Shown here one piece after another: positions 36,123-59,940 of a stretch of DNA of 64,000 nucleotides. Both the position numbers and the translations under genes were made by a program. The stretch is taken from NCBI GenBank assembly GCA_944474755.1, contig OX104115.1, forward strand, positions 54,750,648-54,814,647, given 5' to 3'. This DNA comes from Limnoperna fortunei (lineage: Eukaryota > Mollusca > Bivalvia > Mytilida > Modiolidae). The notes beneath the pieces are model-generated. The model saw nothing but the letters and a program-made list of their open reading frames with translations, had not been told where the DNA came from and searched no databases. How positions within the stretch are numbered: the first letter of the stretch is position 1; each line of letters begins with the position of its first letter.

Positions 36123-36150
36123 GGCAGTATGCCGAGGACGGCATTTTCCG

Positions 36151-36163
36151 GCCAGGGGGAGTA
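36151..36163 (+). other. Polypurine tract
   Basis: 'gccagggggagta' directly before the 3' LTR. The short G-rich purine run is the expected plus-strand primer. Confidence 0.7.
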
Positions 36164-37447
36164 TGTAGCACAGTGGATTTTATATTGTATTTTTCTGTAT
36201 ATGTACTTTAGATTATGTATTCCGTAATTAAAATCTAGAAGTTTCTAATTGTTTGCTTATTCGTAGTAAACAGTATTTCAGTACTTTTATTTTATCTTGT
36301 ATTGCGTTTTATTAATTATTTGCCTTAGGCTATACCTATTGTTAAGTTAGTAAATTTAGCTTGGATTGGTTAGATTAGGTCATATAAATGTTTTGGAGGG
36401 AAATTTCTTGATCTTTCTTTGTTCTTATTCAGTTATAGAAAAGATATTGAACAGCCATGTTTGGTTTTGTTCGTCGCTGTTGAAAGCTTCGTTTAAATAT
36501 ATTATTTATGCATTTCGGACTATGCCAATTGCTTTGGAAAAACACTCTTAGCTTTATGTTTGTGAATATTCTTATTAAGGTCAGTTTATTTCATCTTTTA
36601 TACTAATTATATTTAATATTAAGTTTCATAACATTTTGGCTTTGACTGACAGCTTAACCGTTTAATAAAACTGATAAAAATACTAAACTGCTTCAGTATA
36701 TTAATAATACTAAATAATATTAAATGTAGTAGTAAATATATTTGTTTCTTATAAACAGTTTATTTAATAAACAAAAGTAAACAGCAGATAACAGAATAAC
36801 TGTTGATATAATCAATATATACTTTATTTTAAATAATTACGGTAACCTTTAGGCATCACTTAATTTGTCAAAAGTACATTTGACTTATTACGTTAATATT
36901 TTATTATACAGGTTGCATGTACCTATAATTGTACAACGGTAGTTGCGATTGACCCTTACACCTCATGTGAGGTAAGCTATAGTATTTGTGTATGCTTATA
37001 TTAATTATTGTTCAAATCAGATTAACATGTTTATGCATTTCATTTTTATTTTAATTTTGATGTAATATGTTAGATTGTTTTGCTTTAAGCATACTTTCTA
37101 TATTTTGAAAGGATAGAATGAATCTTTTGCTTATGTGTATTAATATACTCAAAAGATTTGATATCTTGGTAGTATGTATCAAGAATACATGTATATTTTC
37201 GTCGTATATAAAAATAATAATGTAATTGTCTGAAATAGCTTTTATACAAATATGGTGCTATATTATAATATAATATATTTGTATGCCAAATAGTTTTCTC
37301 TTGCACCATGTTTAATGCAATGTTATTTTATATTTGTAGGGTTTTGATTGTTATAGTAATTATTAAAATCTCAACACAAAATAAAGAATCTACAACCTGA
37401 GAACGTTTATGTTTATTTTGTCGACAGTGAAAATCTGCTTTACTACA
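36164..37447 (+). repeat. 3' LTR
   Basis: Same length as the 5' LTR. Noted differences: 'gcacagtgg' for 'gcaaaatgg', 'catataaatg' for 'catatgaatg', 'aacagcag' for 'aacaacag'. Confidence 0.95.
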
Positions 37448-40009
37448 CTATACTTTTGTAAAGCGTGCTGAGTGTAAAAACAGCAAGAAGCTGTTACATG
37501 TCTTTTTGCCTAATGCACTTCATGCAAACCTGCTTTTAACTCGCGATATACTGACAGAGGTAAAAAATGGTTAGAATGGATTGTTATATTTTGAAAATTG
37601 CATTTTAAAGAGTTGCCTCCGATAAACAGTTATTTTAAATGAGTTTTTTCATTAATCAATATACATGTACATGTATAACACTAGAAGACATATGTATAGG
37701 GTCTTACTTTGGTTTAAAGAATACAGTATAAAAGTGACAGTCAATAATTAGTAGATTACATTATTTGATAACAAAGATTTCCTTTTCTAGTTTGTAAAAA
37801 GGAAAATGGAGCATAACAGCTGCAAGAAACTAAATATTCTGTCCCTACCCAATTGTAAATATTTTAACATTGCCCGACCTTTGATTCAACTTATTCCTCG
37901 ATTTATATAGTGTATGTTAACATAACCTTTGCTTGAATAGAAGAAATATATAAATTGCTCTCGCTAGTCTTTTAATCAATGGTAATTATTAATACAATTG
38001 GTTGGTCATAATCCAGTAAGCAGGAGAAAAAGTAAATATAAGAAACAAAACAAACAAACGGTCATTTTGGGATACAGATACACTGTCAAGCTCAACAAAG
38101 TCATAATGACAACCGTATGTGATGAATTCAATCTTGTCACCGTAAACCGTGGATTTGTAGCTTTTCCGAAATTTAAACAGTTTAAACATACACATTACAG
38201 CGTACACGGCACGTCTTTTCATTTTTAAGTATACACGCAAGCAGTGAATAGTTTAATAAACTTTGGTTGAATGTCGAACTGTGGATAATTTAAATACCAC
38301 ATATTCAAACCAAATTACAATGTTGTAATGTCGGGTGACAGTTTATTGAAATGTTCAGACAAATCTATTATATTCTTTCTGTTGGCTTGATATATTTCAA
38401 CGTAATTTGTAATACAATGTGTATTAAAAGTACGAAAGGTTAAGGTTATTCACGAGAAGATAAATGTCAGCGATTGGGATTTTATCTAAATTTGCTGGTT
38501 TAACCAAAGATCATTAGATAAGTCGTTCTTCGATAAATGTGTGCCTCTTTGCAGGAACATGGCTACTCAAGAACCAATGATGTATATAAGTAAAGCCCTA
38601 CCTTAGGGCATGTATTTATGTTTATGAAAAAAACATATTCTAGCAATAAAGATAAAGTTGAATATGTTCTTTGGCCTGCTCCTCTTTTGCCTAGACTGAT
38701 CTTATATATACAAAGATGTTGTACAATCCTACAAGTAATTGTTCTCGGTTTCAGAGCGTAGCTTTTCCAAAAACACTTAAAATGCACCAATAAGTTATTT
38801 CTTAAGTTTCTAAAAATAACCCCAGTGTTTGTTCCTCAAATGCATTATGTACTAGTAAATTAACACTGAGTGTTGGTTTAAAAATTAGCAGTGTCCCTAA
38901 AAAGATATTCTGTGTTTCTACTAAATAAAATTTAACTTAAATTATAAATATATTGTTATTCATTATCTGACTGAATTACATTTTGTTCATTAAACATTTA
39001 CTTAAGTGTCTTGATTACGCTAAACAACTTGGTCTAGTCCGTAAAATAATCCGCTCTTGTAGATTACGTCACATGAACATATATACTTGTCAACACATAT
39101 TTTACACTTAAGCCTTAAAAATGAAAATGCATTGTATTTTTTTTTCATTTCATAATATATCATAAAGAATTTGTTTATATTTTATATGTACAATTAATGA
39201 ACTTTGTTTTTTTACTGATAGTAATCAACGACATGATCGATGCATGAAATATGGAGATTCAACGCTGTTACAACGCGTAGATATGAAAAAATTTAAGTGT
39301 GTTATTTGCGTAGTATTGATCCGTTGTTAGACTTCTACTTGATTGTAAAATGTTCTTAAGAAAAATAGCAAGAAAACCGACCGAACAACAAAAGCCAAAA
39401 GTCAAGGGACAGTAACAAATCCGCATATAGACAAACGCAACAAAAAAACCAAAACACAAACACAGAAAGAGAGTAATCCGAACCCAATAAAAAACCATGA
39501 GTGCACTCAGGTGCTCGAATCTATCTTAATGTAGTAGATAATACAAACAAGTAAATGTGAAAAATAGATTAAATATATCTACATTCGCAACTGTAATTGT
39601 GTACAACTGGATATAATAGTCCAGTGTAGTTTATGATAAATCTCTTATACTCGTACATAAATTTCAATCTACATGGGTTGGTCTGGCAACGCGTATAGAA
39701 ATCTAGCACGAGTCCAGTCACGGTTATTAATTTACCTTACGAATGTTCTTTCGTAAGCATTATTTCTAGTATGGATTATTTACCGTGTACATCGTGAGAG
39801 ACAAGTGTCGCATGTGCATCCCTTGTAAAAATTCATTTTATTTGCACAAAATTTAAACATTTTGAATAAATAGCTAGTTAACATCAAAGATAAGAAATAT
39901 TATTTCTTGCATGTTTAAAAATGGAAATGAAACATGAATCCATTGCAGGAAATGTCTCTTTTACTTATTAAAGTGGGGTGAAATTAATCGACTGGGACCA
40001 TACTGGGAG
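37448..40009. other. AT-rich intergenic DNA
   Basis: No gene recognised. Open frames at 37989-38240, 38563-38790 and 39268-39498 lack domains; the last overlaps a dispersed repeat fragment (about 39,345-39,500, minus) related to 5395-5640. Confidence 0.45.
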
Positions 40010-40412: not shown

Positions 40413-41065
40413 ATTAATCGAACAGTATACATACATGTAAAGTTAAGTACAGAAAAAGAGCATCAGTGTGTTTGTAATACAGTACTATTTAAGAATATGT
40501 CAATACAAGTGCACTGCACTAAATTTATTTGGAAAGCTTTCAACTTGCATTAACCAGTTTTTCTTTTACATAACAGAATACAATATAACCACAACTTATG
40601 GAATTTTCGAAAAGGCATTGTCACATTATCGTGTTGTGGCATCTGTTCCAGCTACTGCTAAATCCAATCAAAAATGTCATTTGCAGTTCAGAACTGCGGT
40701 CACCACAAGCAATTAATAAGAATTGATCATCAATGCCACATATTTTACAAAAAAAAACTAACAAAAGCATTAATGTGTTCCCATCTAATATTTACATAAT
40801 GCGTTCAACTCATTGACGAGCAAAAACAGTATTTAATATGAAACAGTTGTTGTCACCCTAAAATAACTTTTGCCTTAAAGATGCTTGAAGACTTCGTAAG
40901 TGAGTATTAATCTTGCCTGTACAATTTCAAATCACGTAGGTCATGGACAAGAGATAACGTTTTTATCAATATGTAACGTTTGTTTGTTTACTTTTTGAAT
41001 AAGGTCAATACACGTTAGTTTAAATATGTGTGCTGCAATTTAATCCACTTCCCGTTTGATTTAAA
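40413..41065. other. Upstream region of the B-box/Mieap gene
   Basis: No other gene seen. No convincing TATA box; the sequence just before the ATG is 'gatttaaaATGG', a good Kozak context. Confidence 0.4.
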
Positions 41066-41859
41066 ATGGCGCAGTTACCGTCTTGTAAATGTAGTTATTG
41101 TGAAAACAAAATTGGAAACACGTATTGCTATCAATGTAAGTTCTTCCTATGTGATCCATGCAAATTAGGACATGACAAATTTCCAGCTACGAAGAAACAT
41201 AGCGTCACCGACGCAAACAACGTAGACCGATTTACTTTAAGTTTTAATGTCGATTGTGATAAACACAACATGGAATTTGTTCACTATTGTCTAACCTGTG
41301 ATTGTTTTATTTGTACAATCTGTGTTACATCGGACCATAAAGAACATACATTTTCTGGAATAGGAGAAAAATCATTAGAAATTCGAAAAAGTGTCGATGA
41401 AAATATTGCGTCTCTGGAAATGACAGAAAAGACCTTATTAGATTCAATTTCACAGACAAAATTGGCGATTGACAAAATCAGAAATGAACGTGACCGTTAT
41501 CTTAAAGATGCATTTAAAACTTCGAAGGATATTATTGCTATTGTTGAATCGGTTACAACTGAAAAAAGCGATCACGTTTGCAAAATATATAGTGAAGAGA
41601 ATGAAACAATAGCATATGTCATATCACAACTACAACGTGCCAAAGAAGAACGTTCTTTACTTTGTTCTAAACTGAAACATGCCCGTTTAAAGAAATATGA
41701 TTTAGAGTTTTTATTTCATCATAAACAAATTACAAACGACTTAGAACATCTTGACGATGACATTCCAGGTCTATACAGTCGAAGTACAATAGATGATTTT
41801 GATGGAGATGACTTTGTTGATCTTGTTGTGAAAAAAACTGGACAAAAATATAACCTACG
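41066..41859 (+). CDS. Tandem B-box/coiled-coil exon (TRIM-like, no RING)
   Basis: ATG in good context. B-box 1: CSYCENKIGNTYCYQCKFFL...CDPCKLGH. B-box 2: CDKHNMEFVHYCLTCDCFIC...CVTSDHKEH. Both keep the Cys/His zinc pattern, then a coiled coil (ASLEMTEKTLLDSISQTKLA) as in TRIM proteins. There is no RING upstream, so ubiquitin ligase activity is not expected; scaffold or sensor roles are typical. The frame can run to a TAA at 41890, giving a 274-residue protein, but a donor GTTTGT at 41860 ends the exon in phase 2 and splits an Arg codon (CG|A), exactly compatible with the exon at 43439. Both a short single-exon form and a fused long form are possible. Confidence 0.85.
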
Positions 41860-42064
41860 GTTTGTATCATTACATATGAAATCTTTATAAAGTGTATTTT
41901 AACAAGATTAAAATATTTAAAATTGTTATAGGTTTATAAAAACAAAAACATTAGTAATTTCTTATAACAGTTTATATAGCATTTGTTATTATTGTATTAA
42001 AACCGATTTCATTCTCTTGCAGAGCAAACAATATTTATAAGGGGAAGTGTTGCAGCATATTTGC

Positions 42065-42300
42065 CAATTTCATTATTCACTGTTGATTTTTTAACACTTT
42101 ATACAAATCTTTATTATATTGAACAACGATATCTGAACAGGCAGATAAATAAACATATAGTAAATTACGAACACTTAATAATATCCGAACCCCATTAGTT
42201 AAATGTTGATTCCGGTTTATAAAAATTCGTGATTTGCTAAACAGTGAATTTTGCAGTGCAATCATTTTTCAAACCCTAGATTTATTGAATTATAGATTAC
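42065..42300. repeat. Inverted duplicate, arm 1
   Basis: With 41,940-42,065 this segment reappears reverse-complemented at 44,462-44,720, e.g. 'aatggggttcgga' and 'tctgcaagagaatgaaatcg'. Confidence 0.75.
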
Positions 42301-43438
42301 AGTATTGAGTAGTGTGTAAGTAATCAAATAAGTAATAAGTGATTAAATAATAAGCAGTCTCATTTGACGTGGAATTGTCTGTATGAAACAGATAAAGAGG
42401 TCATACACATGTATAATGCAACAAAATAGGTGCTGGGTATATACAATATTTAAATATCAGCTTAGAAAGATAAAATCAAATTCTGCAACATACTAACCTT
42501 GACCTTGTTTATATTTAATAAAATCTATGCCAACAAACATATTTATTAAAGGTTTGCTAAAGATAAGTTTTAAATTGTCATTCGTTTATTACTATATGTT
42601 AAGACTTATATGAGCTTTTCAATCGTATAAAGTTTTGGTTCCAGTCCATTATTGTTATAAACAAAAGATAAGCATACAAAGTTCAGCATAACCTTGACGT
42701 TTGATCGAATCGCGTTTTTCAAGGTTTAGTTTAATAATGACAATTAATGAGCATTTTAGGTATCCACGCTTTAGTGATTAATAAGTGATAATGGTTAAAT
42801 ATAGGAAAACAAATTTAAAATATCTTTAATAAGTAGTCGGCCTGGTCTTGCGCTAGATAGGTAACAAAATGAAGTTTGGCGAGCCAATGTCAACTATTTA
42901 AAGTTTTTGTCTAACATTTCCATGATATATAATGTCATTACGACAATTCGTGGAACACACTTTATAATTAAGATAAACATAATGTAGATATTACTTAAAA
43001 TAGAAACAAATAGTGAAGCATCATGACCTGGACTATACTTCCTAAAACTATGATTGGATGCGAATCGTGCTCTTCCTAGCTGACCTGTTTCTGTACTTAT
43101 ATAATGATTTGCTACTGTAATGATAGAGGGCTACATATGTCCAAAAAAAAACAAACACTGACCATACCTTTAATTTCATATTTCGCTGTGATGATATTTG
43201 TCACTGAACAAAGACAAGTTGGTGGTTATTAGCATGAAATCACCACTAATGAGCTTAAACAAAAAGACAATTTGAGGACCAGAGTAACAACCAACTGACA
43301 AAACTAATAATAAAAATTGAAACTAAGTTTTTCATATTTTAGGCAAGACAATGCTCGCCACAAATACTGTACTGATGGTAGATATTTTGACCAATGGAAA
43401 ATGTATTAAACCAACTAAATATTTTGTTAATTTACCAG
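42301..43438 (+). other. Intron of the B-box/Mieap gene
   Basis: AT-rich. Contains a 45-bp string at 43,057-43,101 ('gatgcgaatcgtgctcttcc') repeated at 44,826-44,870. No exon recognised. Confidence 0.4.
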
Positions 43439-43543
43439 ACTGGTGGAACAAGACGAACGTTTTAAGAAAATTCTAGCTGAGAAAGATGAACTCGAAATGA
43501 GGCTGAGGACACAAGAACGTGCATATAAGGAGTCACAAGAAAA
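43439..43543 (+). CDS. Coiled-coil exon a (35 codons)
   Basis: Acceptor ttaccag at 43438, donor GTAAGTC at 43544. Reads LVEQDERFKKILAEKDELEM, a charged coiled coil. Starts and ends in phase 2 (AA|G/A = Lys at the end), so it can be included or skipped without changing frame. Confidence 0.75.
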
Positions 43544-44262
43544 GTAAGTCTATTTTTTAAGACGATATTATGATTATATTTCTACATGAATCGACTGATA
43601 GCCGTCCACGTGTCTAACTTTTAGTTTTGATGCATTTTTGATAAAAATTGTTCCTCATATTTGATATGATTTTTAAAAGATTTTACTGATTAACAATTGC
43701 TTAATGCATTTTATTTCTTTTATGGCTTTCCCACATTTTTCTGTTTCATAACAACTGAATTGAGTTATATCGAGATCACTTGGAATATTATTTCTGGTCG
43801 CTGAATAGTACTAACATTACTTTGTTCGGTTGAAAGGAAACGTCAGGCATGGGTGGGTAACAAATGAAGTGCATCTTTTTTCTAAGCAATCTTGCCGGAT
43901 AAAATAAGTAAATACAAAATAAACCGTTTTAAAGAAAGCCGCTAGAAAAACAAAATAACACTTTATAATTCCTTGCAGCACAGATGTAATAAGCCGTAAC
44001 AAATCTCCACGTAACACTTGTTACATGCATTAGGCATATTGAGACATTTGAAATCTTTAAGACATTATACTAAATACAAACGGCTTTATATTAAAGTTAT
44101 TATTAAGTTTGCACAATCAATATTGCTCACGTCTCAATTGTTTAACTTATTGTTTGTCTTTAAAAGTTAAGTGAAAGTAGCGTAGACATTACACATCAAA
44201 TAAAAACCGACAAAACAGCACAAGCAGCAGTGCATTTTCAAATGCAAATACATATGTACATT

Positions 44263-44412
44263 GGTAAAAAAGCGATTACGTTTTCAAAATATATAGTGAA
44301 AAGAATGAAGCAATAGAATCTAGCATGTCACAACTACAACGTGCCAAAAAAGAACATTTCTTTACTTTTTTTAAAATGAAACATGTGCCTTTAAAGCAAT
44401 TTGATTGCTTAA
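44263..44412 (+). pseudogene. Decayed copy of part of the B-box exon
   Basis: Matches 41,558-41,705: 'aaatatatagtgaa', 'gtcacaactacaacgtgcca' and 'ctttaaagcaatttgat' correspond to the coiled-coil part of the B-box exon. Several indels and stops. Confidence 0.75.
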
Positions 44413-44461
44413 TTTGATTACATACACGCTACTCAATATTGAAATCTATGATTAAAAAAAA

Positions 44462-44720
44462 ACCTAGAGTTTGAAAAATGACTGCATTCTATAACTAACT
44501 GTTTTGCAAATCCCGAATTTTAATAGACCGTAATAAATATTCAATTAATGGGGTTCGGAGGATACTTAGTTTTCGTAATTTACTATAGGTTTATTTATCG
44601 TCAAATATGATGCAATACTTCACCTTATAAAGTATTGTTTGTTCTGCAAGAGAATGAAATCGCTTTTAATACAATAATAACACACGCCATATATACTGTT
44701 ATAAGCAAATACTAATTTAT
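44462..44720 (-). repeat. Inverted duplicate, arm 2
   Basis: Reverse complement of 41,940-42,290 with moderate divergence, directly following the same-orientation fragment at 44,263-44,412. Together they copy both sides of the B-box exon end in opposite orientations. Confidence 0.75.
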
Positions 44721-44870
44721 TGTGTTTTTTTAAAACTATAGCGATTTCAAATGTTTTCATCTTGTTGTAATAAACTTTGTAAAGATTTGATATGTAATGA
44801 TACAAACCCTAGGTTATATTTTTGTTGGATGCGAATCGTGCTCTTCCTAGCCGACCTATTTCTGTACTTA

Positions 44871-46471
44871 GTACGAAATGTTATGACAAGGGTAGATATG
44901 GTTAAGATTCAGCCCAAATCAAATGAAGGCTAGGTTTATATTACACATTTTTATATATTTTGGAGTTTATTTGGTCCATTTCAAAGCCTGGTTACTAAAT
45001 ACATGTACATTTTCCGAACAAAATACTAAATTTATCAGTATGGTTTTTTAACAAGAAGCTCGAGGTGAGGCTATTTTCCGTTGCTGCGGATTCCAAAAAC
45101 ATTATTTTTTTGAAAATGTACAAGCAATTTTTGCGTTACCTTTTCTTTCAAAATAATGTACATAGTTGGTCAATCGTTTTTTCCTCATTTTATAACCGGA
45201 AGAAATTATTCTAAAACTATAATATTATATTTATATTATATTTGTTCTGTTGATCTTAAGGACAATGCATGCAAAGCATATCAAAACACAAGTTTGAGTC
45301 TCTAAATTCAACTCCAATCTTAGGTTAAGGTATCTGTTTATATATACGTTTATGAACGAAAAACCTCTTTATTTGAAACAAAATGCCAATTGTTCGCAGA
45401 CTTAATGCTGAATGAAATTTATATAACTAACTTTTTGATTTATAGGTTAATGCTGCTTCTATTGAATCATTTTTGTGAGCCAACTTAAAAAATACACGTA
45501 TAATGGATATCATGTTTTAAATGTCTCTCATAGTGCTATACTTAAAAAAGATATGTTGGCTGTACCGCTTAAGCGGTGCAATTGGTAGCATGCTCGCCTA
45601 AAAATATTGAGGTTTGGCAGGACATGCAACAAGCAATAGGAAGAACAAATTCTGGTTGGAGACAAGACAATGTGTAGATGTCTAATTGCGAGAGGTTACT
45701 CCAGAATGTTTGAACTGTAAAACATCCCATCGTCGTGCAAAATACATAACAAACGCATGCATGTTTAATGCAAAACTTGTCACACTGGCCAATAAATTGC
45801 CAACTTGGCTTGTGTACAACATATATGCTCACACTCTCATATAATGCTTAGTTTGATTTGGGGCAGGGTGTGCACGATTCTAGTATTTATTAAAAAGGAT
45901 TGCTAGTTTTCATACCAAAGGCGCGGGTTTTAGACGAGTACTATAATCACCCCTCCCCAATAAAACATGGAGGCTACGATACAGCTGACTGTAGACGATC
46001 CATGAATTTTCGTAAAGGGGGGGGGCCACTTTTCTTATGAAAGGGTCGCTTTGGAGACATTTTATTTTATTACACGGTATTTACATGTATTTATTATTTA
46101 CTTTTAAAAGTGATATCTAATTCTCCTGTTGTCTCATTTGTTTTTGTTGTTGTTATAAATATAAAATATTGACCTGTAATATTTGGATCATTCCAAAGAC
46201 ATGTAAGTACATTATTATGATGTTACACCCATAAAGCATCAAGGTTTTTTTTCTAATGAAGTGTGTCTTGTGTTCTCTTTTGTTTTGACCTTACAATGAT
46301 TTTCATATCATACATCTTGTTATTCTTTTCAAACAAAATGAAAGTTCCATTTAAGATATTATTTTATTTTCTATAACATATATGTGGGTAACACTATTTA
46401 ATTTATACAAGAAACTGGACTGAACTAGAACTCAGATGATATTAATGTTGTTATAAATAAAATTTAATTAA
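44871..46471 (+). other. Intronic AT-rich DNA with a split SINE remnant
   Basis: SINE-like pieces at about 45,567-45,625 (tRNA-like text) and 45,850-45,990 (body, 'caaaggcgcgggttttagac'). No exon recognised. Confidence 0.4.
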
Positions 46472-46636
46472 GAAATAATTCATGGCTGCTCCAATTTTAT
46501 GGATTATTTAAATATGGGTAGGCATTATATTCATGAATATTTTACCATGAGCGTTAGCGAGTGGTAAAATATCATGAATATAATGCCTACCCATATTTCA
46601 ATAGTCCATAAAATTGGGGCAGCCATGAATTATTTC
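46472..46636. repeat. 165-bp near-perfect hairpin (foldback MITE-like)
   Basis: Arms of about 75 bp, 46472-46547 and 46562-46636, with loop 'tgagcgttagcgag'. Three mismatches and one 1-nt bulge seen. Both arms begin 'gaaataattcatggctgc'. Confidence 0.95.
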
Positions 46637-47854
46637 GATTCTGATGTGAAAATACAGAAATTTTACATTTCGCGACTACACAGATAAAGGTTTATTTTGC
46701 CTGTTCCAATTTCCGAGATCCTCCCTTGTTACGAAATTATTATATTTCTCGTATAAAACTTGATAGCAAAAACGAAGAAATATAAATAAAAAAAAACAAA
46801 CTTACATATTTATTAACATTAACAATAAAATGAAACAATCAGAACAAAGAACGACAAAATTGAATGTTTTCATTACATCAGTCACCGTGTGACGTATCTG
46901 TGATTGTTGCTGAGTTTGCGTGACAAATGAAAACTGCTTACCGCATTTGGACGATCTTGTGCTCTTGTTTTAGATCCACAATGGTGCTAATTTAAATCAA
47001 CAGTTATTTTCCACAATTAATCAACATTTTGAAATTCGGTTGCGTTTTCATTTTGATACGGTAAATTCGTTTGCGTTGGGGGCGGGAAAAGTCTCGCGAT
47101 TTGCATTGAAAGTCATTGTAAACAACGCAACGTCCCTTGAAAACACAACGTACCAAAAGTCAAGGAAGACTTGTAACATGTAAACAATAAAGGCATATAA
47201 TAGAAAATGGACGTGATATCGTGAAAACATGTTTTCTATTGGATTTTCGTACAAAGGTACAATATAAAAAAAAATTTTAAGCAAAAACATCAACACACGG
47301 GGGTTTTTGAAATGGCTGGAACAGCCAGATTTTGTTGAATATTTAAATAGAGGTTTGTTTAAAGCGTTTGAAGGACGTCATATTAGAATATGGAGTAGGC
47401 ATTGCCAAAACGAAAGCACAGACAATAAAGTCCTTTATTATTTATATATAATGTGCATTTCATAGACGTTACTTCTGAACATCCTTAAAGTGCCTGTAAA
47501 TTCCAGTGATTACGTGACGTCTTTCTTTGTAATGGTCAGATAAAATGTCATATGATTGTCAGTTTTTAAAGATTGATTAAGAGATTGCAGAAAAATAGTA
47601 TGAAATTTTGTTGTTATTTTTAAATATAACATTTATTTTTTATTCATGTCAACTTCATTTTAAGTCATTCTTTAAAATTAATTTTAGTGCCTTTCGTCAT
47701 TCGCTTTGTTACAGTTTTTTTTAGCGATATCAACTTCTGGACGAAAAAAATCAATATCAGCATTAAGCAAATTTTTATTTCATTTTGATCACATGACACG
47801 TAATTGCCGTTTAGCTCTCCGCTCTTCACGGGCAGCTTTGATGTCCATTGGGAG

Positions 47855-47948
47855 CTATGTTCGCTATAACGGATTAATTGATACATTATCAAAATTTAAA
47901 GCAACAAATTGGTATTTTGGAAAAAGAAAATAGAGAAATTCTGAGCAG
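47855..47948 (+). CDS. Possible coiled-coil exon b, frame-disturbed
   Basis: The 3' part reads NLKQQIGILEKENREILS with donor GTAAAG at 47949, and splits an Arg codon like its neighbours. The only nearby AG (47853-47854) gives 94 nt, one more than a multiple of three, and the upstream half is open only in the neighbouring frame. Either the acceptor is wrong, the exon is dead, or there is one extra base in an A run. Confidence 0.35.
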
Positions 47949-48545
47949 GTAAAGTCATCTAGCTTTTTCACTATTGAAAGAAGAAAACATTGTCAGAAAT
48001 ATGAGAAAATATTGTTTACGTTGAGTCGCCGCATGAGTATATCTGCAAAATGTATTACCCATCAACTAATCATGCAATCAGTAATATGTAATCGTTTACG
48101 AATCTTAAACACAATGCTACGAATCAAAAACCAACATTAACAAGCATTTCTTCTAAAGATTACATGTCTTAAGCATGCGAATCTTTAATACATTTCCATT
48201 ACTAATGTTATATGTTATAAGCGGCATTTACAAACATGTTATATTCAATGATAATGAAAATGTTAAAATGGTTTAAATACAAAACCCATTACACAGTGTA
48301 AATGTTGGATTTTAATTTTGCCTCCTTTTCCCCGTCTAAAACAGTATTTAAGATTGCTTTCAAACGAAATATAATGGTTGTATTTATTTTATTTGACTTT
48401 TCCGATGATAATAACACCCGTTTCGTGATCCAACTACTAGTGGACATAGATTTTTATTGTAAATTCTAATAGGTTTCATTACTGCAGATCAAGAAGTTTT
48501 TTCTTTTATTTAGTTTACTGCACTCATTGTATGTAGTTCTTGTAG

Positions 48546-48715
48546 AAACACAAATCGAAATGAAAAGACGGAAAATGAAAGTGAAATTCAAGCAGTTAAA
48601 ATTGAGAACGAATCGCATACAAAATTAAGAGACGAGTTGGAAGAAAGACTAAGGAATTTACAGAACATATTCTAAGCTCGGAAATAGACAAGGAAAATAC
48701 AGAACTACGATACAG
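48546..48715 (+). pseudogene. Decayed duplicate of coiled-coil exon c
   Basis: Starts 'agAAACACAAA' like exon c and reads NTNRNEKTENESEIQAVKIE, then loses frame at 'cagaacatattctaag'. The donor position reads 'cagATAGAT' where exon c has 'cagGTAGAT', and the following intron sequences also align ('tatgccttattttta'). Splicing out of this exon is no longer possible. Confidence 0.8.
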
Positions 48716-49376
48716 ATAGATAAAAGCATCCTTTCATAATAATATGCCTTATTTTTAAATATCAATTATGTAAAATTTCAGAAAATGCGCAATCTGGGCA
48801 TTTGTTAATAGAAAGATCATGATATAAAACGAACGTATATAGATATTAGAGAAAGGAAAGACAGATGTCGAGTAATATTTTGTCAAAAGAAAAATTAAAG
48901 CACGACAAATGGAAGCATAACGATCACATTGGTACTTTTGTTAAATAACATAAACAAAAACAGATCAGGCATATGTCATATTCCAAAACGGTTATACCTG
49001 GCAACGGATGATAGTTGGTAGTGTGCGTTTTGATTGCCAAGGTAGCAGTACAATAAACCTAGTTCTAGTTCTGTCGAAAAACGTAGGCAATTTTTCCTTC
49101 GTCTTTCCTCTTTATTGGGCAGACAAAGATTCAATGGTCCAGCTCATTTTCCTGATTGATGTATGGTTTAGTAACTTGTTCTCAAGCCGAAATGATGATC
49201 CTTGGACTTATTCATTCAATCAATAAATATAAATATCGCAGTTGGCTTTCAAATACATCTATGAAGTACAACATAAGAATTATTTGTGTACGAGGTTTAA
49301 TTATTGAGATCAGAATAAAAGTCTTATTTTTCCTTAAATATATGTTTACTATAATTAATAGATTTAGTTATTACAG

Positions 49377-49544
49377 AAACACAAATGGAGATGAACAATC
49401 GTTAAATGAAAATGTTAAAGCAATAAAGCTTGAGAACGAATCACTGACAAAACATAATAAGGAGTTGAAGGAAAATATTAAGCAACTAACAGAACAAATA
49501 CAAATGTTAAAAAGGGAACATGAAAGTACAGAAAGGCAGAACAG
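49377..49544 (+). CDS. Coiled-coil exon c (56 codons)
   Basis: Acceptor ttacag, donor GTAGAT at 49545. Reads NTNGDEQSLNENVKAIKLEN through LKENIKQLTEQIQMLKREHE, strongly heptad-like. Phase 2 at both ends, splitting Arg (AG|G). Confidence 0.8.
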
Positions 49545-49749
49545 GTAGATTAAGGCCTTCTTTAATAATGTTAATGCCTTATATTTAAAATGTAAAAAAT
49601 GCATCGGGGTTATAAGTAGTGTTAATACCTCCAAAATCTAGTAATTTAATGTATGGCTCATTTACATGGGTTATGAATTAATGACACTATTATTTAATAT
49701 TGTGTGATTTTTTTTTAAAGTATTTTAGTGTACTAATTTGCTTTTTTAG

Positions 49750-50025
49750 GCTGTACTATTTGAAGGAAAAGGCAGATGCAGTTACATGTCTACAACTTCA
49801 GAATGACTCGCTGAAAAAGATAATTGATAACCTTGAACAACGGGAAAGAGACAATAATATGATTTTCACCAAACGTATACAAAAGCTCGAAAAAGAAAAG
49901 GCAACAGATGCAGAGTCTATGACAAGTCAAAGGGACAAATTAGAACAGAAAGCAAAGGACGACATACGGAAATTAAACGATCTCATAGGTACTCTGCAAC
50001 AAGAAATAAAAGAACATAAAATCAG
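49750..50025 (+). CDS. Coiled-coil exon d (92 codons)
   Basis: Acceptor cttttttag at 49749, donor GTTTAG at 50026. Reads LYYLKEKADAVTCLQLQNDS, later RIQKLEKEKATDAESM and LIGTLQQEIKEHKI. Phase 2 at both ends, splitting Arg. The longest coil segment of the gene. Confidence 0.8.
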
Positions 50026-50771
50026 GTTTAGTATATTTTAACCACGGTCAAATTTTTTTTTTATTGTAGGGAATTAAATTTATTTTGTTATTGTGGGTTC
50101 ATTAAATATAACAAAGGGATCAACACATGTTATGTGGTACATATGCGGGCATGTGTGGTCTTTCCGATATATTGGTCGATGTTTCTGAAAGTAGAGCGTT
50201 ATTATACAAGACATATTGCAGGCAGTTGGGCGTAAAATTTATGTTTAAGTATAGGTACTTACTTTACCGTGTTTCATAAGTGGGAGTAGTATGAAATAAT
50301 GGGAAGTTTACGATTTGAAATAAAAGTTTGCATAAACTTTATAAATTTTAAATTTGTACCGAGTAACTTTGCAGCTGATAAGCTGAAATCAATACCTCTC
50401 ACAAAATTGTTAAAAACCACTCCAAAACGTTTGGTTTCTTTTGTAAAAGATATTTAATTTATTTTTTATCAAATATTGTTCATATATCTATAACAGGTAT
50501 AACGGATAAAATTTGTATTTGACATGATTATCATATAGGGTGGTAATAAGTTAAAACATGATAAAAATAATTAATATGGTTACGTGATTTTCAAAACGTT
50601 TACTGTAATGTTTTTTGTTTTTCTATATTTATCACGACACGCTTCTCAGAAATTATGTACCCAGTTTTAAAATTATGCGACATAATGCATTTTCATGACT
50701 TTTGCTCACATTTATTTTTAATACAACGCACAATATTTTTGTCACAGATTTTTCAGTAATTATATTTAGTG

Positions 50772-50975
50772 AGAGAGCCTCGATGGCATTGGTCTATGTA
50801 GTTAGATAGCTAACAATAACGGTGGATCACGTTTCACCACTGGGAAATAGTATTCTGAGGTAAACAAATGGTCAAATAAAACATATTTAAATGACGAGCA
50901 TTGACAGTATTTTGTCTGCCGAAATTCAGCTCTCCTTACCGGCTACTCCGAGTTTCAATAAAACTAGACTCCATT
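50772..50975 (+). repeat. Decayed SINE copy in intron
   Basis: 'gagcctcgatggca' head and 'ccggctactccgag'/'aaaactagactccat' body of the SINE family. Confidence 0.5.
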
Positions 50976-51575
50976 TATTTTAAGCTTATGTGTAAATTGT
51001 TAAAAAATGAGTTGTATTTTCGTTTACGTTAGTTCGTGGAATAATGGCTGCAAACATTAGTGGGCTAACAAGCAAACCCTCTATGAAACTTAGTGGGATG
51101 AAACTTTAAACACCCAAAGAACACATGAAAGATACTTGTCAATAAAAGTGGGATTTTAGTGCCTATTCCTCAATCCACTTTGATATAAACTACATAGTGG
51201 CCAGGGGAATACATAAGAACACATTCCAAACAGCTGAAATATAAGATAAAAACAACATGGATTTGATTTTATTGAGAAGGACAGTTTACGTAACGTGTTG
51301 TACTAGGTCAAAGAAAATAACAATGTAGAATATTTAATACAGAATACGATATCTCTTATAATTTTGTTTCAATATTTACGTGAGTTTCTTTTTATATTGT
51401 ATTATAGGTTTAAAAATCGATTTATAATGTTAGTGTTTCTGGTATTATGTATAAGAGAAAAACAAGGAGACAAACTGTACAAAAACACCTCAATATGGTA
51501 AGCTGACGAACATACAAAATCATATAAATACCTTAATTATTTAATGTCTACAATATTGTTAAACCTATTTAAAAG

Positions 51576-51713
51576 GTTATACGCAAGTGTTTCAAACACG
51601 AAACATCAGCTAGATGAACATGAAAAACGCGGAAAGAAATTATTAGCTGAATTAAAAGACAAAGATAAAGCCCTTGCTGACTTAAGAACAGAAAAGAACG
51701 GTCTGATAAATAG
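51576..51713 (+). CDS. Coiled-coil exon e1 (46 codons)
   Basis: Reads LYASVSNTKHQLDEHEKRGK through KALADLRTEKNGLIN. Acceptor aaaag at 51575, donor GTGATT at 51714. Tandem paralogue of exon e2, phase 2 on both sides. Confidence 0.8.
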
Positions 51714-52338
51714 GTGATTAATATGTAGCCACATGTATTTAAACATATACACAGATTTTTATGTACATGTAGACTTTTCACAACTATATGCTATATATGG
51801 CTGCAATCATTATTGTGCTAAAAAGCAAACAAACCCTCTATAAAACTAAGTGGGATGAAAATTTTAAACACTGGTAGAACACGTGAAAGATACTTGTCAA
51901 TAAAAGTGGGATTTTAGTGCCTATTCCTCAGTCCACTTTGATATAAACTATATAGTGGCCAGGGGAATACATAAGAATACATTCCAAACAGCTGAAATAT
52001 AAGATAAAAACAACATGGATTCGGTTTTATTTAGAAGGACTGTTTACGTAACGTGTTGTACTAGGTCAAAGACGATAACAAATTAATGTAGAATATTTAA
52101 TACAGAATAGTATATCTCTCATAATTTTGTTTCAACATTTACATGAGTTTGTTTTTATACTGTATAATAGGTTTTAAAATCAATCTATATTGTTAGTGTT
52201 TCTGGTATTATGTATAAGAGAAAAACAAGGAGACAAAATGTACAAAAACACCTCAATATGGTAAGCTGACGAACATACAAAATCATAAAAATACCATAAT
52301 TATTTACTGTCTACAATATTGTAAAACCTATTTAAAAG

Positions 52339-52476
52339 GTTAGACGCAAGTGTTTCAAGCATGAAACATCAGCTAGATGAACATGAAAAACGATTAAAGA
52401 AATTATCAGCTGTATTAAAAGACAAAGAAAAAGCCCTTGCTGACTTAAGAACAGAAAAGAACGGTCTGATAAATAG
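52339..52476 (+). CDS. Coiled-coil exon e2 (46 codons)
   Basis: Reads LDASVSSMKHQLDEHEKRLK and KALADLRTEKNGLIN, differing from e1 at about nine residues (e.g. LDAS for LYAS, RLKK for RGKK). Same splice sites. The duplication includes about 500 bp of upstream intron. Confidence 0.8.
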
Positions 52477-52479
52477 GTG

Positions 52480-54209
52480 ATTAATGTGTAACCACACGTA
52501 TTTAAACATGTACGCAGAGTTGTATGTACATGTAGACTTTTCACACCTATATGCTTTATGTATGGTTCTATTTACTTCATTGAAATAAAGTGATATCGCT
52601 TGCAAATATTCTGATTCCTCCTTGTTCAAACAATATAATTTGCGTTTTAATAGAATCGTGTATACAATATACATAAATTTGGAACAAGGACCAATAATAC
52701 AACTAAAAAATCAAACTGCTTTTTTACTAACAGTATTAGTAGTTTTTATCCAATTTTTCAGTTTAAACTAGCGCAGCTGTTAGACCTGCATTTCCTTCTC
52801 AAGCCTTCTTTTGAAATGATGCTATACCATTTCTATGTAATTACTGTATAAGATATTAATGAAATTTGATGGTTATCTTTATGATTGTTGGCAATTATAG
52901 TCGCAAATGTTTAATCTGCTTTGTATTTGTTAAGTTGTATGTAGTCAACGACGTTCTACAAGGTGTATTTCTTCTAATCCTGTCAACCGTAACTTTAAGT
53001 TAATTGCTAAAAATTGCATAACTATTGAAGTTGACAGTAATTGAAAAGGAAGATATGGTATTTTAACGAATTACCATGTCTTTCTTCCAGAATTAAATCC
53101 GAGTGCAATGTTATACCTGACAAACTGCTGAATGTTGGTTTAAACACCGTATTTATTCCTAACTAGAAGTATCCCATTCATTTTATCTTTGTTTAACGCC
53201 TTCCTGTATTAAGCAACTATCAGCCATGTTTTTCGTCCCCGTTTTACGGAGAAATCCTGTGGAAAACAAACTTGCAATCGAAAAGCCGTTAACAAATAAA
53301 TAAACCCAGTCTGTTGAAAAGGAAAATGTTAGATCCTCAAGCTTTTAGAAGCAAAGGTAAGATCGCTTTATAACTGTGAACAGTCGTCAATACCAACAAT
53401 CGGTTTGGAAATGGCCATGTTTCTCTCAAAACATTGTGTTTGTTATGTTGCTAGCCATTTTGTTTTCAAAAAGTGAAGTAATCAGACCACAATAAACATT
53501 CGGCATAGAACGTTTGGTTAAAATATCTTTAGAACCGGTACATAGGATATTTCAATCGCTGTATGAGGAAAAAATTGATCAGTGGTAATATAATAGTCTA
53601 TTCCTGATTGTGGATTTTGTATTTTTAATGAAAAGAAATGTAAGAAATTACAGCTTACTTTATTAAATAAAACAAGAGATATACAAATCACAGTTTCGCC
53701 AGCTGCAAGAAAATAAGAATAATAGCCAGATCGCCCTTTAAATAAGTACATTTCAAAAACTATATTTTCTGAACACTTTATAAATATTTTTGTTCTGTTA
53801 AATATTTTCAAAAACAAAACTACGATTGAAAGGTAACAACGTTTATTACATAATACTTCAAAAACTTATGCAATCATTAGCCTTTTATTTTTACTATATA
53901 CATCAGAACAAAGACATAAAACACTTTTAGAGTACTTACAACTACACAAAGATAAAATTAATGTGTTACTATTGTCAAAAGAAATTGAAAATATAAATTA
54001 ACAGGTGCAGTTTGTGGGAGCTGATGCCGATTTGACTATTTCGCTCGCGGTGCGATTCGACTTTTTCTTTCGGTTCCGCTTTCACTTTAAGCAAAAATAC
54101 ATGGCTTTTTGAACTGACAAAAAATTTTAACCGCAGTATAAAGATCACCCTGTCTTATGTGACCTTGTTTACATCATCCAGGTTAAGGTCGCTTATACAT
54201 TAATTACAG
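52480..54209 (+). other. Intron, AT-rich
   Basis: No exon or repeat family recognised. Confidence 0.4.
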
Positions 54210-54338
54210 ACACGACGCCTACATTAAAAAGATTCAACAAAAGGCAGAAAATGAGAGGCATGTTTTGTTATCTACAATTCAAGAGAGGGATGATGCTCTT
54301 ACTGCACTAAGAAAAGAAAAAGATGATCTCCAAAACAG
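54210..54338 (+). CDS. Coiled-coil exon f (43 codons)
   Basis: Acceptor taattacag, donor GTAAAG at 54339. Reads HDAYIKKIQQKAENERHVLL and DALTALRKEKDDLQN, similar in its end to exons e1/e2 (ALADLRTEKNGLIN). Phase 2, splitting Arg at both ends. Confidence 0.8.
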
Positions 54339-54809
54339 GTAAAGTACGCAACAAGCATATGCGGTAGTTTTGAAGATATTATTTGACTTTTCCGTTAAAC
54401 GTGAAAAATTCTAGGAAAACGTTAAAACTGACAATCACCAATGTAGTAAGGCTATCACAATTATTATCCACAATTATACATTAAAATGCATAATGTCTTT
54501 TATAATGTATTGTTTTGATGGTTTAGACTATTTATAACGTTACCTGTTAACATACTAAGAAAGTTGGTATGTCGCCAAAACTCGGCAAACGCTTAACAAT
54601 ACATTTGTTGTGAGGTTAGAATAAAAATATATTGATCGAGTCTTTATAATGGACCCCAAAAATCCGTAATGTATATTTTTATATGACATTAAACAAGTTC
54701 AACAGTAATACAACTGCAAAATATAAATAAAGTCACTTTTAATAATCATTGTTACATATATTTTTTGTAAAAATGAATGACAACAGATTTTCGTTATTGT
54801 TTTTCTAAG

Positions 54810-55029
54810 ACTTAGAAGTATTGCCGTTGAAAAATTAACAAAGGGAAATCCAGCAATAACAGATCTGGGAGATCCTAATCGTCCAATGAAGATTGGCGGA
54901 AAGTATGGCGAATTGTATGATAATGAATGGACAGATGCTATGGAATGTACAGGATATCTACAGCAACTGCATACTGAATTGACGGCATCAGAGGTTGAAG
55001 AGATAGTCATACATCATCTATATAGGATA
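54810..55029 (+). CDS. Mieap domain exon 1
   Basis: Acceptor ttttctaag. Reads LRSIAVEKLTKGNPAITDLG, then DPNRPMKIGGKYGELYDNEW and TDAMECTGYL. 'DPNRP.K...KYGELYDNEWTDA' is the signature start of the Mieap (mitochondria-eating protein/SPATA18) C-terminal domain. Phase 2 in, phase 0 out at GTAACC (55030). That donor is weak but phase-consistent. The frame could instead read on to a TAA at 55149. Confidence 0.8.
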
Positions 55030-55269
55030 GTAACCGTAGGTGTTTTAATGTTAACACTTAAAACCAAAGCTATGACAAACATTCCTTTAATGTCAACATT
55101 GAGGGGCTATTTTAATCGGTCTGTCGAACGAATATTATTTAAATGTTAAAGCAAAATCTTCATTATCTTTGTTTTTTGCCTTAATTACACTCAAATATGT
55201 GTTTGTGATTTGTTTTGTTGTTTGTACATGTTTGTATGATAGTTAAATCAGCATTTAGAAAGCTTAAAG

Positions 55270-55445
55270 GTATATCGTGGCGTCTAGTTTTATATTGCGG
55301 AGAAAGCCGAAATACCATAACAAATCCCTTTGGTAGGAACACTGGCATTACTTGTCAATTAGAATTTGAGTCGTTTAAACTCGGCATGCAGTGAGACTTA
55401 AACTCACATTTTAAGTGCTGGCAGATAACTTAATCAATAGTTCTA
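55270..55445 (-). repeat. Decayed SINE copy in intron
   Basis: Minus-strand body and part of head: 'cgtggcgtctagttttat', 'ttgtcaattagaatttgagtc', 'agtgctggcaga'. Confidence 0.6.
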
Positions 55446-56802
55446 TTCAACATTACTATTTCGATTCAACATTACTTTTACAAGGGTTGTCTGATTACTA
55501 CTCGATATACTTTTTCAAACATCAGACAACCATTCTGGTTATATACATATTTTAATAACATTTTCACTACGTGAAAGTATGACAAAACAAGTCTTTAAAA
55601 GAACAAACAGTTCTTGAATAAACTCGTTGTGGTCGCTTAGAGTTTTTTTTATTTTGTTAACTAATACAAAATGTAGTGAAACTAATAGTCCTCCTGTTAT
55701 ACTCCACCCTTCCGACAAAATATTAGAACTAATATTATTTAGTTTTAAAGCCTTTTCTGTTTAGAAGCCTTATTTGTTTATCTATAAATAAATTATTTTC
55801 AAAAACTATTTCTTTTGATTTCACTTAAAGAGTAAATAGACTGGTGGCGTCGTTTATTCAAACTGTATTTACTTATTTTCAAGTCGCTGATTAAGGATAG
55901 ACCGGACTGCCCTAGAAGTGTTAGATGAAATTATTAATATCAAGTAAAGCAATTCAATATAACATTATAACTGCGTTAAGGTACCTTACTTACAATGCTT
56001 TGTGATCGACAAGATGTTCCTTTCATAAATTTATGACATGAAAGTCAAATTTCGCAAATTGTTATACGTTTGTCTGTCTGTGGATTATATGAACAACCTA
56101 TCTTGTTATTAATGGAAGAATCGTTTATAGTACTAGTACTTAGATAGGCGTACTTTATTAAATTGTAAAATATTTAATATGTTTTATCAATTTTACAAGC
56201 AATTGTATAAAGCCTTTCTCTTAATCTTTATCACTGATACGTTCGTTGTTCATAACTAATTTTTGAATTGCCACTTACATGACTTGACTGCTGTATTGCT
56301 AAACAATGTTTAGGTCTTCTTTATATTCTTAAATTCTTCTTTTCATTAAAATGGAAAAAATTTACGTACATATATTTCTTTTTGTTGTTTCTTATTATTA
56401 TTTACAAGATTTGTCTGCAATATCTCTAAACATTTAGTAAATATTTTCCTTAGATTTATTAACTCCATCTTTCTCTTCTAAAAATAAGTATTTTCCTCAA
56501 TCATATTTTCTTTTATGTATTGATAAGTGCACACCGGATTGTATATATTGATTTCACTGAGATGTGTTAACTTCTTGATACAAGACGTACATGCTAACAA
56601 AATTCAATTAATTATAATATAGAGAAACATGATTAAGTACGTTTTGTCAAACACACTAAATGTGTGGTATATTTGTTTTTGTTTCATTGGTCTGTCTAGG
56701 TATCATAACAGCTAAATTCATGTGCTTGTGCACTTCAACAAAACGTTATCTGATCTTTGACTATACCTTATTTTTAATTATTTGGTTATATTATATTTTT
56801 AG
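55446..56802 (+). other. Intron, AT-rich
   Basis: No exon recognised; pyrimidine-rich acceptor ttatatttttag ends it. Confidence 0.4.
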
Positions 56803-56883
56803 CAATGCTATCAGGAATGTTTGAAATTGGCAAACGACCAACTTGTGAGCATTGCACAGATGTTGCAACTCGACACTAGTAAA
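56803..56883 (+). CDS. Mieap domain exon 2 (27 codons)
   Basis: QCYQECLKLANDQLVSIAQM then LQLDTSK, donor GTAAGT. Phase 0 on both sides. Matches the Cys-rich helix of Mieap domains. Confidence 0.8.
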
Positions 56884-57629
56884 GTAAGTAAATAGAAATG
56901 AGCTATTCAAAACAGTGATCATTAGTCTGCAAAATTGATTCATTTAAAAATAACATATATTTTGTTCTCAACATTTTGGAATCTAGTAACAAGTAGTCAG
57001 AACAACATATTCCTTGAGACAATATAATTATCTCACGTGGACAATAAATGCACGAATGAAGTATGTACTATCTTTAACGATATATTTTAATGACTTCTTT
57101 AGTTTACATGGTGTAGTACCTCAATAATAAACAAACTAAAAATATAAATATGATACACTGAAACTCGCGTTATTGAAAAGAAGTTACTATACTGATATGT
57201 ATGTGACAAACGAACATCATAGCTGGAACACTGAAATTCTAAGGACATTACCATACACTTTTCTGGAGTTGTATGTAAAAATAGCGTGCATTAAAACAAT
57301 CAATTTAAAATCACCTAAGCTAAATCTATGTAAAATGGCTTTGATACTAACATATTTTGCACCGAAAATCTCTACTCCGATTTCCTTACTCATTTCTCAA
57401 AAGATGAGTTCCACTCCATTTGGTCAACCAAACATTTTTTTGTTCCATTGTAACATGTGACATTCGAGATATAAGAAATTTGTTGGTACATGTAATTGGG
57501 TGTAAATTTAATTGCGCAGTTATTAATTGGCTCATTAATTGTTTTGTCTGTTAACGAAATTAGTCTAACAGGAGTGAAAATCAAACGTAATTAATTACAG
57601 TTTAAACTTTGTTCTTGTGAATTCATTAG

Positions 57630-57728
57630 ATTGCCACAGACATAGAAAGTTTACCTGGATGTAAAGAAATAGCAGTTATCAGAAGGCAAAATGCTGAAAA
57701 AGTTGCAACAGTATTGTATCAAACGAAG
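57630..57728 (+). CDS. Mieap domain exon 3 (33 codons)
   Basis: IATDIESLPGCKEIAVIRRQ then NAEKVATVLYQTK, donor GTAAAA. Phase 0 on both sides. Confidence 0.8.
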
Positions 57729-58287
57729 GTAAAAATGATTTCGAGAGTAGTTATTCATGCTCCAATTAACGAACATTCTCTTATTTAAATACGATGACAT
57801 CACGAATTAACAGGTTCACTGCAGAATGTATACGTTTAAGTAACGGTATTTTAGTAAGTATAAAGCATAATCTCCGTAAATTGATAAAATCATTTTTGAG
57901 TTTAGAAAAATATTAGCAAAATACGGAGACACCATCCCAGTAAAGTAAAAAATAAAGTCATCAGTAAATTGCATTTATGATAAGTGATTAAGACACCTAG
58001 CACGAAAACCAATAAAATACATGAGCGAAAGTCGGGAAAGAGTGCAAATCCGGATTCAGAGAAACCAAAACAACAGGAAAAAGATACCCAAATCAAATAT
58101 TAACAGCAAGTGGGTTATATGAATCAATTAAAACATGTGGAATTAGGCGCTGGTCATTTTTCCGTCTACCATATTTTAATTACTGAAAACAAGAAAACAA
58201 TATAACAGTTACTGTAGTTTTAAGTACATGTATACTGAATATGTTCTGGTAGACAAATTTATATTAACATGTACTGTATATAAATAG

Positions 58288-58590
58288 GTTCTGGTCGACA
58301 AAATTGTCAACTCTGATTGGCAATATCATTGGAAATCAGAGGAATTGACAAGAAGAATCATGGAAACTCCGTTTTATGAAAAATGTGTTCATATCTGCTG
58401 GAGTATGGCAATACAGAATCCCGCGATGGTACTGAGTGACGCCCTCCTACCTGGTACAGTTTATGATAAAAACTTGTACAGAGAATTCGTTCAGAGTGGA
58501 GATAAAGTAAAATATGTTATATGGCCAGCTTTGTTCTTACACAAGGACGGTCCGCTATTATTCAAAGGTGTCGTGCAGCCATATAAATGA
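58288..58590 (+). CDS. Mieap domain last exon
   Basis: 100 codons plus TGA. FYEKCVHICWSMAIQNPAMV then VKYVIWPALFLHKDGPLLFK: the ECxxLCWxMxxQxPP and YVVWPALxLHxxGPLLxKG strings are the hallmark of the Mieap C-terminus. In vertebrates Mieap controls mitochondrial quality (degradation of damaged mitochondrial proteins). In bivalves this domain occurs in multiple proteins of unknown role. With the B-box and coil exons the chain is 816 codons without a stop. Whether the B-box exon is really spliced here is inferred from phase only. Confidence 0.88.
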   Translation, partial: VLVDKIVNSDWQYHWKSEELTRRIMETPFYEKCVHICWSMAIQNPAMVLSDALLPGTVYDKNLYREFVQSGDKVKYVIWPALFLHKDGPLLFKGVVQPYK

Positions 58591-59025: not shown

Positions 59026-59940
59026 CATATTGTTATAGTTCCTTATTTGATAGTAATCCATCAAATATTTCTCTGCAGACAACATACCGTATAACAATAG
59101 TTAAGTCGCGATTTTACATACATGTGTTGTATTACCTTAATTTCACATTGCTGTTTAATTCAATTTTAGTTGTGCGTTTTTCTTATAGTTCCTTATTTTA
59201 TAGTAATCCATCAAATATTTCTCTGCAGACAAAATACAGTATACATGTAACAATAGTTAAGTCGCGATTTTACATACATATGTTGTATAACTTTAATTTC
59301 ACATTGCTGTTTAATTCAATTTTAGTTGTGCGTTTTTCTCATAGTTCCTTATTTTATAGTAATCCATCAAATATTTCTCTGCAGACAAAATACCGTATAA
59401 CAATAGTTAAGTCGCGATTTTACATACATATGTTGTATAACTTTAATTTCACATTGCTGTTTAATTCAATTTTAGTTGTGCTTTTTTCTTATAGTTCCTT
59501 ATTTTATAGTAATCCATCAAATATTTCTCTGCAGACAAAATACCGTATAACAATAGTTAAGTCGCGATTTTACATACATGTGTTGTATAACTTTAATTTC
59601 ACATTGCTGTTTAATTCAATTTTAGTTGTGCGTTTTTCTTATAGTTCCTTATTTTATAGTAATCCATCAAATATTTCTCTGCAGACAAAATACAGTATAC
59701 ATGTAACAATAGTTAAGTCGCGATTTTACATACATATGTTGTATAACTTTAATTTCACATTGCCGTTTAATTCAATTTTAGTTGTGCGTTTTTCTTATAG
59801 TTCCTTATTTTATAGTAATCCATCAAACATTTCTCTGCAGACAACATACCGTATAACAATAGTTACAGTAAGTCATATGTTGTATTACCTTAATTTCACA
59901 TTGCTGTTTTTTCACTTTTAGTTGTGCGTTTTTCTTAGAT
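59026..59940 (+). repeat. Tandem array of 150/156-bp units
   Basis: Six 'ctctgcagac' anchors at 59071, 59221, 59377, 59527, 59677 and 59833 give periods of 150, 156, 150, 150 and 156. The longer units carry six extra bases ('catgta' type). All periods are multiples of three, so a 265-codon hydrophobic frame (59124-59921) stays open across the array. It is treated as a satellite, not a gene. Confidence 0.9.

Follow-up and report, generated by a model that had tools for sequence, protein, structure and literature searches.

TRIM proteins such as TRIM5, TRIM28 and TRIM72 end in SPRY, NHL or PHD-bromo domains, and no B-box is known in Mieap/SPATA18. A 64,000-nucleotide stretch of the genome of the mussel Limnoperna fortunei (the window; GCA_944474755.1, contig OX104115.1, positions 54,750,648 to 54,814,647) very probably holds a single gene, g1, that brings parts of both together. 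In its predicted protein B-box, coil and MIEAP domain follow one another in that order, as in fusion proteins from Mytilus; the gene model, a tandem array of related genes, splice donors and homologues agree on this arrangement. A C-terminal Mieap domain preceded by a coil is common to g1 and human Mieap/SPATA18 (PF16026); unlike TRIM proteins, g1 is RING-less and carries the Mieap domain at its C-terminus.

Human Mieap forms mitochondrial condensates via its C-terminal region and binds cardiolipin (PMC10845071). In bivalves the family is greatly expanded: OG24 holds 807 genes, at 53.1 per bivalve species compared with 0.6 elsewhere, an expansion tied, without test, to mitochondrial damage control in a study whose Mieap and B-box orthogroups are listed apart and which does not mention a fusion (PMC8382680). 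Two further papers report a Mieap domain over-represented among gill genes of Mytilisepta virgata (PMC5549309) and, in a text that names no B-box, a cadmium-responsive mitochondria-eating protein of Dreissena (PMC11036304). Like OG24, the L. fortunei genome has expanded Mieap genes (105 exon-level PF16026 matches, 99 of them on one contig). The expansion itself is already published; the fusion proteins are in databases under automatic names only, and literature searches found no description of a B-box/Mieap fusion. The first-pass annotation of the window had put the fusion forward as its strongest candidate for something undescribed; this fits the papers searched and fails for databases, where Mytilus entries with both Pfam domains exist.

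Domains and exons of the window gene

Spliced together, the eleven exons of g1 (Table 1) give 2451 nt, that is, 816 codons and a TGA, which reproduces exactly the open join of one B-box, six coil and four Mieap exons that the first-pass annotation had proposed, with the first Mieap exon, m1, ending at 55029. That exon stands; its end, judging from alignment, is most likely 55035. Moving the donor by these 6 nt gives 818 codons, all open, and the shift is preferred because (i) HLYRIVT/QCYQEC then aligns to relatives without a gap; and (ii) five downstream genes read Val (GTN) there, as a phase-0 GT donor would. In the eleven-exon model every acceptor has AG and every donor GT. All six coil exons are multiples of 3 nt in phase 2-2, as annotated, and six of the seven junctions from the B-box exon to m1 split an Arg codon, the seventh (43543/49377) splitting Lys. 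Does this regularity, which had also been noticed at first pass, mean anything in itself? Because the splice consensus ...AG/G or AG/A spells AGG or AGA in phase 2, Arg splitting is a by-product of that consensus and no separate signal.

Both domain families exceed their Pfam cut-offs in the joined protein: the B-box exon matches PF00643 (zf-B_box) at E 1.8e-9, and PF16026 (MIEAP) reaches 65.3 bits vs a cut-off of 27 over residues 611-813 of the 816-residue join. Pfam scans gave no RING match in the window protein, and RING is absent from the families listed for the 31 Mytilus-group proteins described below. An upstream exon cannot add a RING to the start of exon 1, since an in-frame TGA (41057-41059) precedes its ATG with no AG acceptor between them. 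The earlier label “TRIM-type” fits the B-boxes with their zinc ligands; by sequence, the window protein is not a full TRIM and is better described as RING-less and TRIM-like. The first-pass idea of a TRIM-type sensor coupled to a mitochondrial effector is not supported in that form and stays hypothetical. A TRIM-like B-box/coil shape is supported by the structure model of one homologue, Mytilus P0020, which predicts two B-boxes and a TRIM-coil-like helix, likewise found in TRIM5, TRIM28 and TRIM72.

One gene or two

Profiles for the B-box and Mieap parts were run over the window and 200 kb downstream of it, on a contig (C5) of 100.98 Mb in a genome of 1.335 Gb. Read along the + strand, the elements run B M B M B B M B M B M B M (B, B-box exon; M, Mieap module): six genes, g1 to g6, in a row on one strand, with one B-box exon duplicated and a B-box exon before each Mieap module. 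Both B-box zinc-ligand patterns are found in g1, g2, g4, g5 and g6, and B-box2 only in g3. The short B-box exon of this third gene occurs twice, 10.9 kb apart (C5:54883497 and 54894431), and its last Mieap exon carries a stop. All six downstream B-box frames, two of which are identical copies, end exactly at /GTAAGT in phase 2. A strict search for phase-2 coil exons in the six B-box-to-Mieap intervals chained 34 exons on the + strand, 21 of them in the gene next to g1, vs 0 candidates on the - strand; only three of the six window coil exons reached the threshold. To judge from the sequence, these strand-limited coil exons are not chance. Genome-wide, the g4 B-box exon has 17 matches, 15 of them on C5 at 53.58-55.15 Mb, within a Mieap cluster where a B-box exon immediately precedes 14 of the 19 Mieap last exons (shuffled mean 8.4; at least 14 in 6 of 100000 shuffles, a descriptive figure, as tandem-duplicated copies are not independent; two fragments of 34-35 residues were dropped, and the window exon and g6 added).

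Could the locus nevertheless be a pair of genes duplicated together, one a short B-box gene that stops at the TAA at 41890, the other a coil/Mieap gene with an unseen 5′ exon? The frame of exon 1 does run intact to that TAA, its donor (CG/GTTTGT) is weak, with a position weight matrix score of -0.9, an in-frame Met inside coil exon c1 could start a shorter protein, and most of the 142 genome-wide matches of the window B-box exon have no PF16026 listed close behind them, on an unscored reading of the lists. But the frame of c1, followed upstream, meets a TAA at 43428 before any ATG, the Mytilus proteins are joined, and the donor is kept. The window B-box exon is of another type than the downstream ones, with its best relatives on other contigs (C3, C4, C6, C8 and C12) or at C5:38.3-38.6 Mb and its best non-self match (49%) on C6; all seven relatives whose DNA was read carry a phase-2 GTNNGT donor at the corresponding position (GTATGT in one, GTAAGT in three, GTTAGT in three), so that the weak-looking GTTTGT of the window is a conserved donor of the family. 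In three of these seven, and in all six downstream frames, the TAA of the donor itself is the in-frame stop at this site. Silence of PF16026 is in turn weak evidence, since 4.9 kb downstream of the closest relative, at C6:40.09 Mb, lies an m1 exon that this profile overlooked. That exon lies on the same strand, matches the m1 hidden Markov model (HMM) at E 2.8e-23 and has the phases of the window m1; one phase-2 coil candidate lies between it and the C6 B-box exon, and none on the opposite strand. One window-type relative was read as far as a Mieap exon, and one had it. Two separate genes are, on balance, highly unlikely.

A protein search with the Mieap part returned 80 proteins, those named all being bivalve, which were scanned as two sets: 31 (the 28 best and three more from Mytilus; 30 of the 31 named Mytilus) and the other 49, nine Mytilus proteins among them. 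PF00643 occurs in 23 of the 31 and PF16026 in 27; all 49 of the second set carry PF16026, with no B-box family among the 25 of 27 matched families listed. A ligand-pattern scan found B-box and Mieap core together in 19 of the 80. Bivalve proteins with both B-box and MIEAP, to which the first-pass annotation had pointed as a check, do exist as Mytilus database entries: P0002, P0004, P0005, P0020 and P0026 combine PF00643 and PF16026 in the domain order of g1, with a variable coil. Their Mieap parts are 48-54% identical to that of the window, and identity between the window B-box exon and the Mytilus ones compared reaches 23% at most. In P0020 and P0026 the B-box exon apparently leads straight into Mieap, with no coil exons, which fits coil exons that behave as cassettes. 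The Mytilus fusion entries are unreviewed and automatically named (some as “B box-type domain-containing protein”), and most look by name like automatic predictions; might they and the window array be gene-prediction artefacts of adjacent families? Such an origin is extremely improbable: the fusions come from several Mytilus species and assemblies, P0007 derives from a 2713-nt contig that is probably a transcript, and the strict phase rules and donors of the window array were seen without any prediction program. Because array order, conserved donors, the C6 relative, which repeats some of this order on a different chromosome, and the Mytilus proteins converge, the B-box/coil/Mieap fusion first proposed from the window is very probably real and one gene.

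Discordance, decay and coil-exon duplication

Several observations weigh against so simple a picture. Five of the 19 Mieap exons in the C5 cluster have no detected B-box exon directly before them; eight of the 31 Mytilus-group proteins have no Pfam B-box, and no B-box is among the families listed for the nine further Mytilus proteins in the set of 49; a protein search with the B-box alone found no relative at E<=0.001. On C6, m2-m4 were not found in the ~2.8 kb beyond m1, where PF16026 also listed nothing; an incomplete gene or a long intron may account for this. Because the donors of c4 and m1 depart from the consensus, as does that of exon 1, the window copy may splice poorly or end in part at the TAA at 41890. 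In trees drawn from 19 of the 31 Mytilus-group proteins, with g3 omitted, the B-box of g1 falls with Mytilus P0002/P0020/P0026 (99/99, long branches) and its Mieap part with its own array (88/87). The pairing of B-box and Mieap, to judge from these trees, is not simple joint descent: the discordance of g1 would reflect either an exchanged B-box exon or Mieap parts that homogenised within the array.

B-box and Mieap distances are correlated overall (Mantel r 0.71, 0 of 2000 permutations), g1 being the exception. Ratios of nonsynonymous to synonymous substitution (dN/dS) were contrasted between the two parts in the pairs g2/g4 and g5/g6 only. The closest pair, g2/g4, gives 0.85 for the B-box exon vs 0.11 for Mieap m1+m4 (Fisher 7.8e-9); the older pair, g5/g6, gives 0.22 vs 0.20 (p 0.92), with no B-box/Mieap difference.

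Is the family real and the window copy nonetheless decaying, losing function? Its weak exon 1 donor would fit, as would the history of c5a and c5b, a tandem duplicate (753/763-bp unit, 91% identity) in which the exons have diverged about as much as their flanks (6.5% vs 7.6%), with 7 of the 8 differing codons changing the amino acid. Decay is visible nearby, in a coil duplicate and rearranged B-box fragments within an intron, in a last Mieap exon upstream and, downstream, in the stop of g3. But all 818 codons of g1 are open, both B-box zinc patterns are complete, and the Mieap part is intact and conserved (m1 dN/dS ~0.15 vs g5 and g6, with dS, the synonymous component, saturated; other g1 m1 and m4 comparisons gave no dS). 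Loss of function in this copy is therefore unlikely. The upstream Mieap exon probably belonged to a former gene; with no clear B-box before it, it was left out of the count of six. Beside it lies a Gypsy-like element with gag/pol-like frames (27682-37447), whose long terminal repeats of 1284 nt are 99.7% identical, pointing to a very recent insertion. Other repeats include an intronic 165-nt inverted repeat (46472-46636; 89% self-complementary), perhaps a small mobile element, and, just after g1, about six copies of a ~150-nt tandem repeat (59030-59937), open for 298 codons in one frame and probably satellite-like.

Variation of coil length through symmetric exons, suggested at first pass, is borne out by the six coil exons of g1 and the 21 found in the next gene. 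The latter has 17 full copies, among 19 matches, of a 93-nt phase 2-2 exon (31 residues); they are 67-97% identical to the query, fall into two alternating types, and are spaced mostly in alternation at ~380-400 and 580-620 nt. The array could encode one very long coil or serve alternative splicing.

Table 1. Exons of g1 and associated features; positions are those of the window unless C5 is given.
Feature	Position	Strand	Details
Exon 1: start codon, B-box1 (C6H2), B-box2 (CHC3H2), TRIM-like coil	41066..41859	+	264 codons + 2 nt; open frame
Exon 1 donor, ACG at exon end, then GTTTGT	41860	+	phase 2; position kept in 7 relatives
Intron 1 read-through to in-frame TAA	41860..41890	+	probably intronic; phase-2 GTNNGT donor at homologous site in 7/7 relatives
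Coil exon c1, 105 nt, phase 2-2	43439..43543	+	reached strict coil-exon search threshold
Coil exon c3, 168 nt, phase 2-2	49377..49544	+	reached strict threshold
Coil exon c4, 276 nt, phase 2-2; weak donor, CAG then GTTTAG	49750..50025	+	below threshold
Coil exon c5a, 138 nt, phase 2-2	51576..51713	+	below threshold
Coil exon c5b, 138 nt, phase 2-2, tandem duplicate of c5a	52339..52476	+	below threshold
Coil exon c6, 129 nt, phase 2-2	54210..54338	+	reached strict threshold
Mieap exon m1, DPNRPMKIGGKYGELYDNEWTDAM core, phase 2 in / phase 0 out	54810..55035	+	HMM E 5.4e-39 (HMM built from g1 and homologues, g1 itself in the training set)
Mieap exon m2, phase 0-0	56803..56883	+	exon join, profile scan
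Mieap exon m3, phase 0-0	57630..57728	+	exon join, profile scan
Mieap exon m4 with stop codon	58288..58590	+	PF16026 E 8.4e-14, 52.5 bits vs cut-off 27
Decayed duplicate of coil exon c3 (49377), outside the model	~48546..48700	+	in-frame stops
Rearranged decayed copies of exon 1 3′ part and downstream flank, inside intron c1/c3	44266..44825	.	self-BLAST 82-88%; 44266-44406 direct, 44404-44825 inverted
Decayed last Mieap exon, 4 in-frame stops	38436..38735	+	tblastn 32% identity, E 3.5e-6; HMM piece E 4.5e-8
93-nt coil-exon array	C5 ~54.839-54.848 Mb		L011-L012 (88051-96945 continued from the window)

Elsewhere in the genome, a separate locus at C6:21.07 Mb is the best PF16026 match; its pieces cover the profile, one of them with stops, and by sequence it is probably the SPATA18 orthologue. 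The frame of the last Mieap exon continues in other clusters for a further 216-464 residues or more (L029:8337-9998, L030:6219-7499, L031:7329-8297), the extension at L029 being a TQSGKSNMTGTQ-like repeat; no convincing B-box was seen in the 10 kb (L029) and 7.5 kb (L030) read.

A putative mitochondrial scaffold

Taken whole, the comparative evidence makes it likely that the locus is a single gene, in which B-box1-B-box2-coil is followed by six symmetric coil exons and a Mieap domain of four exons, and that it belongs to a mytilid family of RING-less TRIM-like/Mieap fusions expanded in tandem. The proposed mechanism, a RING-less TRIM-like assembly that the Mieap part would bring to cardiolipin membranes, stands at about even chances. 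Tandem B-boxes and the TRIM-like coil would form dimers and higher-order assemblies; the variable coil would govern spacing as well as avidity; and Mieap, the conserved domain, would direct the assembly to a cardiolipin-rich mitochondrial membrane, or form a Mieap-type condensate there, under stress or infection. With phase-2 exons, coil and B-box exons could be duplicated or swapped with the frame intact.

Cardiolipin is present in mitochondria and in bacteria. A bolder reading, which we regard as a long shot, makes these genes diversifying intracellular sensors of mussels, in which a fast-changing B-box would pick partners or targets, coil exon number would set the reach, and Mieap would coat or condense on cardiolipin. 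The B-box vs Mieap contrast in g2/g4 is a hint in this direction; g5/g6 give none. If the sensor reading is true, one protein could seal intracellular bacteria as well as damaged mitochondria, and the expansion of Mieap in bivalves would have its explanation.

What does the fusion mean for the family? Each bivalve species has dozens of Mieap genes, of which this array represents a fused subset, and it shows cleanly how duplicated symmetric exons can build coils of widely different length on a single gene plan. A TRIM-like-fused set of Mieap genes, in tandem and with swappable B-box and coil exons, makes a question testable: are these immune or stress receptors with a mitochondrial output?

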